Shown: one piece after another, positions 16,410 to 62,831 of the stretch
Numbering within the stretch: the stretch's first letter is position 1
Layout of the letters: every line of letters begins with the position of its first letter
DNA from: Chthoniobacterales bacterium
Lineage (GTDB): Bacteria > Verrucomicrobiota > Verrucomicrobiia > Chthoniobacterales > DASVRZ01
NCBI GenBank assembly: GCA_039930045.1
Contig: JBDSQB010000016.1
Location: 186,001-250,000, forward strand
Length of the DNA: 64,000 bases
Direction: 5' to 3'
The notes under the pieces: generated by a model
Told to the model about the DNA's origin: nothing
What the model saw: the letters and a program-made list of their open reading frames with translations, nothing else
Database searches by the model: none
Position numbers and translations under genes: made by a program

Positions 16410-16583
16410 GGTTTTTTGGGAACAGTCTTCTAACTAGCAATATTACGCGCCATTTCTCAGAATGATCGTCTCTGCCACCACGTTCAGGCGTCTGCCTGAT
16501 GCTCGAAGAATGGGAAAAGGCGGAGTTGCATACGACTCACTCGCGGGTTGCAAAAAAACAGCTGCCGCCGAACACTGCCTGCG

Positions 16584-17717
16584 ATGCTGCGCATTGCGAT
16601 CTTCATGCTCATTCGCGACCGGGCGAAATACGCCATGCTGGTCTGCGGGCTCACCTTTTGCGCGCTGCTTATGTCGCAGCAATCGTCGGTTTTTTGCGGG
16701 CTGATGATGTGGTGCACGGCGACGATCCGCAACATCGGCGCGCCCGTCTGGGTGATGGATCGGGCGGTGGAGCAGGTGAACGAGGTGACGGCGATGCGCG
16801 AGATCGAGGTGAACCGTGTCCGGAGCGTTCCCGGAGTGGACTGGGCGGTGCGACTCTATTGGGGGCTGACCCAGACGCGATTGGAGGACGGATCGTTTCA
16901 GCAAATCCAACTCACCGGACTCGACACGGCGACACTGGTGGGACGTCCGGCGGTGATGAAAGAGGGCCGAATCGAGGATCTCAGACTACCCAATGCAGTG
17001 ATCGTGGACCAGGTAGCGAGGGAAAAGTTTGCCAAGAAAGGACTCAAACTCCACTTGGGCACGACGTTTGAGATCAACGACAAGGAGGCACGCGTCGTCG
17101 GCATCTGCGAGACGGCGCGGAGTTTTTTCGGTCAGCCGTATGTTTACACGACCTACGATCGCGCGCTGGAATACGTGCCGTTTGTGCGGAAGCGGCTGAG
17201 TTTCATCCTGGTGCAACCGCAGGCGGGAATCTCGCCTGCCGAGTGCGCCAGCCGCATCTCAAAACTACCCGGACTGCGCGCGGTCGAGGCGGAGCAATTC
17301 AAGTGGGACACGATCTGGTGGTATATCAAAAACACGGGAATCCCGATCTCGTTTGGCACGGTCGTCCTGCTCGGGATCATCGTCGGCGTGGCCATTTCGG
17401 GGCAGACGTTTTACCTCTTCATCCACGAGAATCTGCGCTATCTCGCCGCGCTCAAGGCGATGGGCGTAACGATGCCGACGCTGGCGAAAATGGTCTTTCT
17501 CCAAGCCTTCGTCGTCGGAGCGGTCGGCTACGGCATGGGCGTAGGACTCGCCGCGCTCTTCGGAAATCTGGTCATTAAAAAGGGACAGCCGCCGTTCTTC
17601 ATGCCGTGGCAGATTCTGGCCTTCACCGGCGGCGTGATCATTTTCATCTGCTGCCTGTCAGCGCTGTTTGGGTTGCGGAAAATTGCCAGACTGGAGCCAG
17701 CGGTGGTCTTCAAATGA
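16584..17717 (+). CDS. ABC transporter permease, DevC/MacB-FtsX type
   Basis: 377 residues from the ATG just before the first membrane span (MLRIAIFMLIRDRAKYAML). The layout is one amino-terminal helix, a periplasmic domain of about 220 residues, then three helices (FGTVVLLGIIVGVAISG, FVVGAVGYGMGVGLAALF, ILAFTGGVIIFICCLSALFG). This is the FtsX-fold of type VII ABC systems. With the following ATPase and adaptor it forms a DevB-C-A-like export system; the known Dev system exports glycolipids with a TolC-type channel, but the substrate here is unknown. A 105-bp palindromic element separates it from the ATPase gene. An upstream in-frame ATG at 16548 gives a basic extension and is less likely. Confidence 0.85.
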   Translation: MLRIAIFMLIRDRAKYAMLVCGLTFCALLMSQQSSVFCGLMMWCTATIRNIGAPVWVMDRAVEQVNEVTAMREIEVNRVRSVPGVDWAVRLYWGLTQTRLEDGSFQQIQLTGLDTATLVGRPAVMKEGRIEDLRLPNAVIVDQVAREKFAKKGLKLHLGTTFEINDKEARVVGICETARSFFGQPYVYTTYDRALEYVPFVRKRLSFILVQPQAGISPAECASRISKLPGLRAVEAEQFKWDTIWWYIKNTGIPISFGTVVLLGIIVGVAISGQTFYLFIHENLRYLAALKAMGVTMPTLAKMVFLQAFVVGAVGYGMGVGLAALFGNLVIKKGQPPFFMPWQILAFTGGVIIFICCLSALFGLRKIARLEPAVVFK

Positions 17718-17739: not shown

Positions 17740-17844
17740 CGGGAGCGCACGCGTCTCGCGTGTTCCCTTTTGCGTCTCGCGAAAGGGTCGGCCTAGCCAT
17801 CGGACGGGACGTCCGCTGGAACACGCGAGACGCGTGCGCTCCCG
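17740..17844. repeat. dispersed multi-hairpin repeat (GGGAGCGCACGCG type), copy 1
   Basis: The ends are perfect 27-bp inverted repeats, beginning CGGGAGCGCACGCGTCTCGC at 17740 and closing with its complement at 17844. Inside lie smaller stems: CCTTT/AAAGG and CGGAC/GTCCG. The whole unit can fold as a branched stem-loop. It sits in the gap between permease and ATPase genes of one operon, so it would be transcribed. A diverged copy is at 62695-62831. Confidence 0.85.
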
Positions 17845-17886: not shown

Positions 17887-18585
17887 ATGAAACACGCCGC
17901 TGTCGAAGTTGAAAACGTCGTCAAAACCTTCAGCACCGGCGACCAAAACGTCTTCGCCCTGCGACAGGTGAATTTTGCCGCGCAGTTTGGCGAATTGCTC
18001 ATGATGGTCGGCCCGTCCGGCTGCGGCAAAACGACCTTGCTTAGCGTCATCTGCGGCACGCTGGAGATTGATGAGGGTCGCATCTGCACGCTGGGCCACC
18101 CGCTCGTTGACATGAAACCGGGCGAGTTGACGAAGTTTCGCGGACAGAATATCGGCTTCATTTTTCAGCAATTTAATCTGATCCCGACGCTCACGATTGT
18201 TGAAAACGCCTCCGTGCCGCTCCTCATCAACGGCCATTCGCGCAAGGAAGCCGAGGAGCGCGCGGCGCATACCATTTCCGAACTCGGGCTCGGCGACCGG
18301 TTGCATTCGTATCCAAGTCAACTCTCGGGCGGACAGCAGCAGCGCGTGGCGATTGCCCGAGCACTGGTGCATGAGCCGAGGCTGATTATTTGCGACGAAC
18401 CCACCGCCTCGCTCGACGCCAGGAGCGGCCACAAAGTGATGGAACTCCTCCAGAAAACGGCCATTCGCCCCGACCGCGCCGTGATTGTGGTGACGCATGA
18501 CAGCCGCATTTTTGAGTTCGCCGACCGCATCGCCGAGATGGAAGATGGCGTGGTGAAAGGCATCCACGCGCAGAAAAAAACCTGA
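17887..18585 (+). CDS. ABC transporter ATP-binding protein, DevA/LolD type
   Basis: 232 residues, the standard size for the ATPase of MacB/LolD/DevA systems. Cytoplasmic, paired with the permease upstream. Walker A is GPSGCGKTT near residue 41, the Q-loop is FIFQQFNLIPTLT, the signature is [15 protein letters not shown], Walker B is LIICDEPTASLD, and the switch histidine is in VVTHD. The start ATG is followed by KHAAVEVENVVKTF, the usual opening strand. It is separated from the adaptor gene by only 16 bp, so the two are cotranscribed. Confidence 0.93.
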   Translation: MKHAAVEVENVVKTFSTGDQNVFALRQVNFAAQFGELLMMVGPSGCGKTTLLSVICGTLEIDEGRICTLGHPLVDMKPGELTKFRGQNIGFIFQQFNLIPTLTIVENASVPLLINGHSRKEAEERAAHTISELGLGDRLHSYPSQLSGGQQQRVAIARALVHEPRLIICDEPTASLDARSGHKVMELLQKTAIRPDRAVIVVTHDSRIFEFADRIAEMEDGVVKGIHAQKKT

Positions 18586-18601: not shown

Positions 18602-19540
18602 ATGTTCCGCAAACCCACGTTTTACCTGGCTGTCATCGGAGTGGTGATGGCCTTTCTGCTGGTCTCGAAACTGCGCCGACCCGATCCGAAGGTCGCGCCG
18701 CTGGCCCAGCCGACGTCCGCGCCCTTTGCCAATTCGCTGGGAGCGAGCGGACTCGTCGAGTCGGTCAATGAAAACGTCCGCGTCGCGCCAACCAGTGCGG
18801 GCTTGGTTTCCGAAGTCAACGTGACGGTCGGCGACATGGCAAAAAAGGGCGACGTCCTGTTTTCTCTCGACGCCCGCGATGCCAAAGCGGCCATCGTCAG
18901 CCAGCAGGCGCAGGTCGGCGTGTTGCGGAGTTCCATCGCCTTGGCCGAGGTCGCGCTGGCGGATAAAAACGACACGTTGCGACGAATCGAGAAGTTGTCG
19001 AAGAGTCAGGTCTCCAGCGAGGACGAGCGGACGCGGGCCGATTTTGCCGCGCGCCAGGCGTCGGCCAATCTCGGAAAAGCCCGCGCCGAACTGGAGCAAG
19101 CCGAAGCGGATCTCAGTCGGGCGAAAGTGACTCTGGAGCGGCTGACCACCCTCGCACCGCGCGATGGCCGCGTCCTCCAGGTGAACATTCGCGCCGGAGA
19201 ACAAGCCGTGCTCAACTCCGACACGCCCGCGATGCTCCTGGGCGACGTGGATCAATTTCAACTCCGCGCCGACGTGGACGAAGACTACGCCTCGCACGTC
19301 GTCCCCGGCAGCGAGGCCGTGGCGTTTCTGAAAGGTTCGCGCGAGAAAAAAGTCGTGCTCCATTTCGTCCGCATCGAGCCGTATGTCGTGCCCAAGCAAT
19401 CGCTCACCGGCCTCAGCAGCGAGCGCGTCGATACCCGCGTCCTGCAAATCATCTACCGCTTCGAGCGCCCCGATTTCCCCGTCTATGTCGGCCAGCAGAT
19501 GGATGTCTTCCTCAACGGCGACGTAGCGAAAAAGATGTAA
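18602..19540 (+). CDS. HlyD-family periplasmic adaptor, DevB type
   Basis: 312 residues. One amino-terminal membrane anchor (FYLAVIGVVMAFLLVSKL) is followed by a biotinyl-lipoyl-like half-motif (GLVSEVNVTVGDMAKKGDVL), a long coiled-coil hairpin (about residues 85-185), the second lipoyl half (LAPRDGRVLQVNIRAGEQ) and a beta-barrel domain ending FPVYVGQQMDVFLNGDV. Membrane-fusion proteins of this build join an inner-membrane ABC exporter to an outer-membrane channel. No TolC-like gene is nearby, so the channel must be encoded elsewhere. Last gene of the DevC-A-B-like operon. Confidence 0.88.
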   Translation: MFRKPTFYLAVIGVVMAFLLVSKLRRPDPKVAPLAQPTSAPFANSLGASGLVESVNENVRVAPTSAGLVSEVNVTVGDMAKKGDVLFSLDARDAKAAIVSQQAQVGVLRSSIALAEVALADKNDTLRRIEKLSKSQVSSEDERTRADFAARQASANLGKARAELEQAEADLSRAKVTLERLTTLAPRDGRVLQVNIRAGEQAVLNSDTPAMLLGDVDQFQLRADVDEDYASHVVPGSEAVAFLKGSREKKVVLHFVRIEPYVVPKQSLTGLSSERVDTRVLQIIYRFERPDFPVYVGQQMDVFLNGDVAKKM

Positions 19541-49574: not shown

Positions 49575-50444
49575 TTAGGCACTGGCCAGAGTGGTGAGAG
49601 CGCCGAAGTCGGTGCTGTGAATATTAGTCGCGCAGCCGTCGGCACCCGATAGATATGGAACTCGCTCGTGCGCCCGCACTTCCAAAAAGTGAATCAGGTG
49701 CTCGCGCAGCTTGTAGTAGTCGGGGTGCTCCATGATCTCCTTGCGCTGGCGCGGACGGGGGAATTTTACCTCCAGAATGTCTCCGATGGTCGCCTCGGGA
49801 CCGTCGGTCATCATCACGATCCGGTCGCTGAGAAAAATGGCCTCATCGACATCGTGCGTCACCATCATGGCGGTGATGCGTTCCTTGCGCCAGAGGTCGA
49901 GGAGGACCTGCTGCAACTCGTAGCGAGTGAGGGAATCCAGCATCCCAAACGGCTCGTCGAGCAGAAGCATTTTCGGCTTCAACGCGAAGGCGCGGGCGAT
50001 GGCGACGCGTTGGCGCATTCCCTGGGAAAGCTCGTCAGGATACTTCTCCATCGATTCGCCGAGGCCGACTACAGTTAGGTAGTATTCAGCGATTTGCTGG
50101 CGCTCGATTTTATCCGCGGTGTAGAAAACCTGATTGATGCCTAACATCACATTTTCCCGGGCGGTCATCCACGGAAGCAGGGAGGGGGACTGGAAAACAA
50201 TGCCGCGATCCGGTCCCGCGCCGTCGATCTCTTTTCCGGCAATGACGATGACGCCCTCAGTGATTTCACTCAGGCCCGCGAGCATCATGAGCTGGGTGGA
50301 TTTTCCACAACCGGAATGGCCGATGACGGTGGTGAATTCACCTTTCGCGATCTTCAAATTGAAATCCTTCACGATAACGGCGCGTCCGCCATCCGCCTTG
50401 GGATAGGACTTGGTTAGCTGCGAGATTTCCACGTAGGCGCTCAT
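49575..50444 (-). CDS. nrtD: nitrate/nitrite ABC transporter ATPase (NrtD-like)
   Basis: 289 residues. Walker A is GHSGCGKST, the signature [13 protein letters not shown], Walker [13 protein letters not shown], and the switch region [16 protein letters not shown] is the DEA-x-x-L-S-D version found in nitrate, sulfonate and taurine importers. A short carboxy tail follows (about residues 230-289). Start overlaps the stop of the other ATPase (ATGA). The two ATPases form a heterodimer, as do NrtC and NrtD, but neither carries the NrtA-like domain of cyanobacterial NrtC. Confidence 0.9.
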
Positions 50445-62355: not shown

Positions 62356-62566
62356 GGAAATGGGTTTACTGTCGGGAGAAACCGCATTTCCGACCACAGG
62401 AATGGGGTTATTTTCCAGAAGACCTGCATTCCCGATCCCGGGAATGGGCTTATTTTCCAGAGGGTGGCCCTTTCGGGAGCCGGGAATGGACTTATTTTCC
62501 AGAGGGTAGCCCATTTCCGATCCCGACATGGAGGTATTGGCGAGAGGGTAGCCATTTCGGGATGGG
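62356..62566. repeat. 42-bp minisatellite, about five units
   Basis: Five head-to-tail units start at about 62356, 62399, 62441, 62483 and 62525; unit lengths are 43, 42, 42, 42 and 42 bp. Each opens with GG-A-ATGG, has TTATTTTCCAGAGGGT in the centre and ends in an imperfect CATTTCCGATCCC. Units 2-4 are most alike. Because 42 is a multiple of three, the array is open in several frames on both strands and gives a 14-residue peptide repeat (for example LENKPIPG on the minus strand). A real protein is not supported by the flanks. Confidence 0.85.
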
Positions 62567-62694: not shown

Positions 62695-62831
62695 GGGGAG
62701 CGCACGCGACTCGCGTGCGGATGGGGGCGACTCGCCCCCATTGTCTGATTCCCTTTCGCGGTGCCGCATTGCTGCTGGAACGCAGTTTCGGCGAGTCGCC
62801 GAAACCCACACGCGAGTCGCGTGTGCTCCCC
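62695..62831. repeat. dispersed multi-hairpin repeat (GGGGAGCGCACGCG type), copy 2
   Basis: The ends are 23-bp inverted repeats with one mismatch, opening GGGGAGCGCACGCGACTCGC and closing with its complement. Inside are two strong hairpins: GGGGGCGA/CGCCCCC and GTTTCGGCGA/TCGCCGAAAC. The terminal stem is that of copy 1 (17740-17844) with a single T-to-A change that is matched on the other arm. Non-coding. Confidence 0.85.

Follow-up and report, generated by a model that had tools for sequence, protein, structure and literature searches.

The window, by which the whole stretch of 64,000 nucleotides is meant, harbours a palindromic element of 105 bp between the permease and the ATPase genes of one exporter, a placement given in a preliminary description of this DNA and confirmed by gene calls and Pfam matches. 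The element (copy 1) lies 23 bp past the stop codon of the permease gene and 43 bp ahead of the ATPase gene, and its 27-bp inverted repeats at 17740-17766 and 17818-17844 are indeed perfect. A second copy does exist at 62695-62831, with arms of 42 nt (62695-62736 and 62790-62831) that are 86% complementary. The genes and the parts of both copies are:

16548-17717, + strand: FtsX/MacB-type ABC permease, upstream of copy 1 (PF02687, PF12704)
17740-17844, no strand: putative non-autonomous REPIN-type element, copy 1, with the T-first loops TCT/TCC (repeat search, extraction, folding)
17741-17762, + strand: left end unit of copy 1, GGGAG tag and hairpin CACGCG-TCT-CGCGTG
17765-17787, + strand: left inner hairpin of copy 1, CCCTTTTGCG-TCT-CGCGAAAGGG
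17797-17819, - strand: right inner hairpin of copy 1, CCATCGGACG-GGA-CGTCCGCTGG on the + strand, loop TCC on the - strand
17822-17843, - strand: right end unit of copy 1, inverted copy of the left end
17887-18585, + strand: ABC ATPase, downstream of copy 1 (PF00005)
18602-19540, + strand: HlyD-type periplasmic adaptor, gene 3 of the exporter operon (PF16576, PF13437)
62695-62831, no strand: REPIN-type element, copy 2, with ACT loops in four of four hairpins
62696-62717, + strand: left end unit of copy 2, loop ACT
62720-62742, + strand: left inner hairpin of copy 2, GATGGGGGCG-ACT-CGCCCCCATT
62785-62805, - strand: right inner hairpin of copy 2, GTTTCGGCG-AGT-CGCCGAAAC on the + strand
62809-62830, - strand: right end unit of copy 2, loop ACT, with an unmatched G-to-A

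Immediately upstream of copy 2, a run of degenerate repeats of ~60 nt (GGGAATGG..TTATTTTCCAGAGG) occupies positions 62400-62560 of the window.

Over 115 nt, copy 1 folds with z = -10.0 as DNA and -9.4 as RNA (-82 kcal/mol for the RNA), and 0 of 200 shuffles were equally stable. Assignment to an RNA family was rejected, as Rfam covariance models at gathering scores matched only a tRNA in the window and left the palindrome without a match. The preliminary description had taken a T-to-A change in copy 2, paired with the complementary change in the other arm, as the sole difference in the core and as a sign of selection on the fold. The right arm, however, also carries an unmatched G-to-A (GGGAGCACACGCG...), which forms a wobble in the long stem, and arm-arm covariation of the T/A position was rejected because the changed base is the first base of a hairpin loop, TCT being switched to ACT in every hairpin of copy 2. 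The apparent complementarity of the arms stems from their being inverted copies of one putative recognition sequence. What stands of the proposed selection on the fold is the conserved pairing within the hairpins: in the 37 distinct inner hairpins, 94.6% of the base-pair cells are paired, compared with a mean of 66.6% and a maximum of 70.8% in shuffles. Within an element, the two inner hairpins are mostly of different sequence, each keeping its own pairing, and are thus not kept by pairing with each other; ACT inner loops are found only beside ACT outer loops (outer-inner ACT-ACT in 6 of 6).

The two copies do not form a local pair. The 22-nt core has four matches in the window, where 0.01 are expected, and a collection of all copies, as had been proposed, yielded 89 copies of this 22-nt end in the 3.52-Mb genome (0 for the reversed pattern), from which a dispersed family emerges. 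The inventory of this genome (G000) comprises 40 two-ended short elements, one element of 570 bp and many single ends. The short elements follow a common plan, namely GGGAG, the hairpin CACGCG-TCT-CGCGTG, 2-3 bases and an inner hairpin, typically with a 10-bp stem and again a 3-nt loop, with the right half inverted. The inner stems amount to 27 sequences (37 distinct 23-mers), which are freely combined. The loops are nearly always TCT, TCC or ACT, and within an element the 3-nt loop stays the same; the arms are unequal in many elements, with TCC versus TCT in L004, L006, L013 and L049. As read from the sequence, the architecture, copy number, pairing and loop concordance of the family are well established. 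Inverted doublets of tag plus hairpin units in many dispersed, mostly extragenic copies are found as in REPINs, the tag being GGAG here and GTAG in the relatives G050 and G032; a CGTC-type tag (Rickettsia palindromic element or CGTC REP) is not what these elements carry. In the right ends of L050, L051, L052 and L060 the hairpin loops are replaced by longer inserts (AACCG..AGATCGCCTCGCCAATATTT..CCCACCGAGGCAAA), and in L026 and at L045:1990-2178 the loop of the inner hairpin is replaced by an insert of about 60-75 nt; it looks as if the loops themselves were insertion targets. The exact 22-nt end (L065-L181) is also present in MAGs from numerous verrucomicrobial orders and in single contigs of Acidobacteriota and Armatimonadota, a cross-phylum occurrence that suggests either horizontal spread or binning error. 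A viral origin was considered and rejected, with 0 exact matches of the end in IMG/VR.

As the element is one of about 55 loci beside unrelated genes, the special role in the exporter operon that had been attributed to it finds no support. Neighbour orientations, which rest on our own simple gene calls, are convergent for 18 and tandem for 15 of the 33 short elements with both neighbours called, and divergent for none; most short elements lie within 35 bp of a stop codon, typically 1-35 bp after it. This placement matches the one reported for REPs (PMC3733652). The lack of divergent sites and the proximity to stop codons read as survival where an element is harmless. Landing in frame appears bearable too, since 4.2 of the 6 frames of an element are stop-free, compared with 2.3 of 6 in shuffles. 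An in-frame reading was nevertheless rejected for most copies in this genome, as L006, L008, L015, L017, L023, L040, L050 and L060 look like antisense frames or upstream extensions, leaving metH (L011) and recG as the only convincing cases.

The recG case provides the presumed transposase. One further RAYT-like frame of G000, 219 aa long and more distant, was seen at C3:106456. Y1_Tnp has a single match in the genome, at C1:49515-49772, flanked by the ends C1:49404-49425(+) and 49952-49973(-) together with inner hairpins of the same design; the right end even carries the same inner hairpin as the left half of copy 1 (CCCTTTTGCG-TCT-CGCGAAAGGG). This element of 570 bp (190 codons) is open throughout, its reading frame is continuous with recG on both sides, and the resulting ORF of 902 aa scores 783.9 with the NCBIfam RecG model NF008168 (cut-off 718) and 87.2 bits with REP_Tyr_transpos NF047646, the REP-associated tyrosine transposase (cut-off 80). 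In the solved RecG structure 1gm5, the insert falls between residues 456 and 474. The HUH motif, the single tyrosine, the RAYT-specific profile and the flanking cognate REPs place the enzyme among the RAYTs, and both the HUH (H-x-H) and the Tyr (Y..NP) motifs are kept in the aligned embedded homologues. Between the host halves, Pfam and NCBIfam detected only the Y1_Tnp/RAYT domain and no intein protein-splicing domain. In metH, a short REPIN-type element sits in frame at a linker (L011:1501-1604, G000:C3); the same linker in G036 (L216) holds a whole RAYT element, and L216 has a further in-frame short element.

RAYTs are usually described as free-standing genes, a description that is no formal definition, and here all 20 members of the clade, which includes two named loci added to the genome-search matches, are embedded in frame (RecG 6, AlaRS 10, ThrRS 3, MetH 1). 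The genomes compared are probably in large part MAGs. Among 57 relatives, close matches (E<=1e-40) were without exception inside open frames of 769-1513 aa, and across 388 genomes of the phylum the same holds for 9 of 9 matches at E<=1e-25, inside frames of 730-1479 aa; some carrier frames end at contig ends (L221, L256, L090). AlaRS and ThrRS are present exactly once each in the six genomes counted, with the AlaRS of G028 divided between two contigs. In five genomes, no RecG-like full match exists besides the RAYT-bearing RecG, and the remaining long matches are of Mfd length. In six RecG proteins the insert occupies the same variable loop ahead of the IGTHALL motif and is absent in seven empty relatives, while in AlaRS it resides in the same loop ahead of ISGAFAFRLYD and is absent in two empty relatives; the shared loops may be a matter of tolerance and not of targeting. 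Another RAYT lineage, longer by about 40 aa, was observed in frame in LeuRS, ValRS, CarB, Sua5/YrdC and ClpB, and also in restriction/methylase or helicase genes of related genomes (L223, L224, L225, L226, L227, L228, L229, L230, L231, L232, L233, L234).

The architecture of the ends recurs in other genera. Among the 18 embedded elements examined, most clearly read tag-hairpin-hairpin-RAYT-hairpin-hairpin-tag, only some of the hairpins having been called in a few, and the loop class is common within an embedded element, be it T, G, C or the 4-nt CCCT. In L217 (recG of G015), the transposase is flanked by oppositely oriented ends with the tags inwards, unlike in other members of the clade. On the RAYT tree, the first base of the loop changes twice, compared with 4-6 changes in shuffles (0 of 500 as low), and the G-loop and the C-loop groups each form one clade. 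Members of the C-loop group lie in two host genes and in distant families, a distribution that suggests movement from host to host. The host gene fits the tree weakly, with 7 changes versus mostly 8-10 in shuffles (31 of 500 as low); these labels give no support to strictly vertical descent inside a single host gene, and the RecG carriers as one clade are not rejected (p-AU 0.217).

In a forward test, the ends of three other embedded elements were counted in 12 genomes. The first end occurs in 18 and 24 copies in G050 and G032 and at most twice elsewhere; the G-loop end in 69, 112 and 10 copies in G027, G036 and G018, with 0-1 elsewhere except in G029; and the third end in 11, 50 and 13 copies in G014, G029 and G028, with 0-6 elsewhere. 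The predicted ends are thus repeated mainly in genomes with the cognate transposase. Counting against this, G029 holds 22 copies that are 1-2 mismatches off the G-loop end and have a T-first loop. The window's own end, with its 89 copies in G000, occurs at most three times in most of the 12 genomes, and 20, 47 and 80 times in G027, G036 and G020. The 80 ends of G020 are mostly CCT (C-loop) among the copies listed, with several at contig ends, and no close transposase was found in this fragmented genome, which weighs against the explanation favoured below. At the level of sequence, the location of a transposase between the same ends, its in-frame embedding and the coupling of ends and transposase across genomes are well supported.

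Taken together, the window element is very probably of the REPIN type, that is, a non-autonomous member of a REPtron family, in which an inverted pair of REP-like units is moved in trans by a RAYT (HUH/Y1) enzyme. Each REP-like unit would consist of the GGAG tag and a hairpin followed by a second hairpin, with two such units inverted per element, and the RAYT would be carried by the 570-bp element with the same ends. Since the latter is in frame inside recG, the transposase would be made as an inserted RecG domain, presumably active while fused and within a host protein that still functions. Studies on TnpAREP established single-strand recognition, a tetranucleotide guide and cleavage at CT sites; specificity in Stenotrophomonas maltophilia depends on the base that opens the 3-nt REP loop, and cleavage is abolished once this base is altered (PMC8266576). 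If the present enzyme works alike, it should likewise read the first loop base: both the tag and the folded single strand would be recognised, T loops and A loops would be two specificity types, and the short elements, presumably mobile, would be copied or moved as single strands. The outer flanks are pyrimidine-rich (TCTTC, TTCCCC) and may hold the cleavage site. Elements would then be retained at harmless sites, chiefly right behind stop codons, as between the ABC permease and the ATPase genes. Two further points count against the REPtron reading: the tag is GGAG instead of the canonical GTAG, and no A-loop transposase for the A-loop elements was found in G000.

The exporter-centred proposal, in which the hairpin is a regulatory RNA that attenuates, stabilises or processes the mRNA and so causes unequal amounts of permease and ATPase, can point to the very stable RNA fold, to a site between co-directional genes of one operon, and to the established knowledge that REPs elsewhere can act on mRNA 3' ends (PMC3733652). 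It is nonetheless quite improbable, given that most loci of the family lie between convergent genes, that the loops covary with a transposase, and that the ends define transposase-coupled families; an effect on the permease/ATPase mRNA is possible, at most as a side effect. Still harder to credit is that a DDE transposase mobilised an ordinary MITE whose inverted repeats were kept identical by gene conversion from arm to arm. Small size, dispersed copies and terminal inverted repeats would suit such an element, but each arm forms a hairpin of its own with a constant loop, the inner hairpins are not common to both halves, the TCC and TCT arms of the elements named above differ, and the transposase between the same ends is of the HUH/Y1 type.

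The strongest competitor, although itself unlikely, is domestication, whereby the REPs would serve as bidirectional terminators or protectors of mRNA 3' ends and the embedded transposase would have acquired a host function, for instance in DNA repair. The placement 1-35 bp after stop codons with no divergent sites and the conservation of the transposase inside a repair helicase and other single-copy genes are what such a role would predict. However, the transposase has a patchy distribution (9 of 388 genomes of the phylum at E<=1e-25), it resides in unrelated host genes, and the host gene follows the tree only weakly, as noted above.

REPINs and REPtrons with their RAYTs (PMC3116915, PMC6006769, PMC8266576) share with the present elements the inverted REP pairs, the 5' tetranucleotide plus hairpin, the many, mostly extragenic copies, the HUH/Y1 RAYT gene between the same ends, and a loop base as specificity determinant, as in Stenotrophomonas. 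They differ in that here each end has two hairpins with one shared loop and the tag GGAG, and that the RAYT gene lies in frame inside single-copy housekeeping genes instead of being free-standing. In-frame palindromic repeats within genes are known as intragenic REPs of Opitutus terrae (Verrucomicrobia) and as Rickettsia palindromic elements, where the host genes include repair and tRNA-synthetase genes; unlike the present inserts, these are not reported to carry a transposase, and the CGTC-tagged RPEs are without a dedicated one (PMC3733652). Inteins are likewise in-frame mobile inserts of essential genes with recurrent sites and single-copy carriers, whereas here no splicing domain was found by Pfam or NCBIfam, the insert resides in variable loops, and DNA hairpins flank it. 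IS200/IS605 elements have in common the HUH single-tyrosine transposase and the subterminal hairpins, and are set apart by the RAYT equivalog match (NF047646), the inverted REP ends, and the 570 bp that leave no room for TnpB.

REPINs, REPtrons and in-frame REPs, even in the verrucomicrobial O. terrae, were thus known before (PMC3116915, PMC3733652). No transposase or RAYT gene inside a housekeeping gene turned up in the literature searched, which was that outside subscription papers and preprints, and the arrangement appears to be undescribed there. A large RAYT survey of 2018 put aside proteins longer than expected, taking them for fusions or annotation errors (PMC6006769); surveys that drop such long "fusion" proteins would have missed gene-embedded RAYTs. 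We consider it rather probable that a REP transposase lineage is permanently housed in single-copy RecG, AlaRS, ThrRS and MetH genes, with a sister lineage in LeuRS, ValRS, CarB, Sua5 and ClpB, from where it emits loop-matched hairpins, comparable to an intein but without splicing. If so, the transposase is translated as an inserted domain and the host can lose it only by exact excision, since any other deletion would damage the host protein. Populations of REPs and REPINs last over long times even though RAYTs seem dispensable and patchy, and a single-copy housekeeping gene as the site of the transposase would be a simple and testable explanation for this. The set offers about 20 naturally occurring fusions of a transposase with a host protein, for which the single-strand DNA substrates are defined. 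Recognition can be studied in its natural series of loop/enzyme pairs (T, G and C, with A loops so far without an enzyme), and the fusions point to positions where AlaRS, ThrRS, RecG and MetH accommodate an extra domain of roughly 190 aa in nature.
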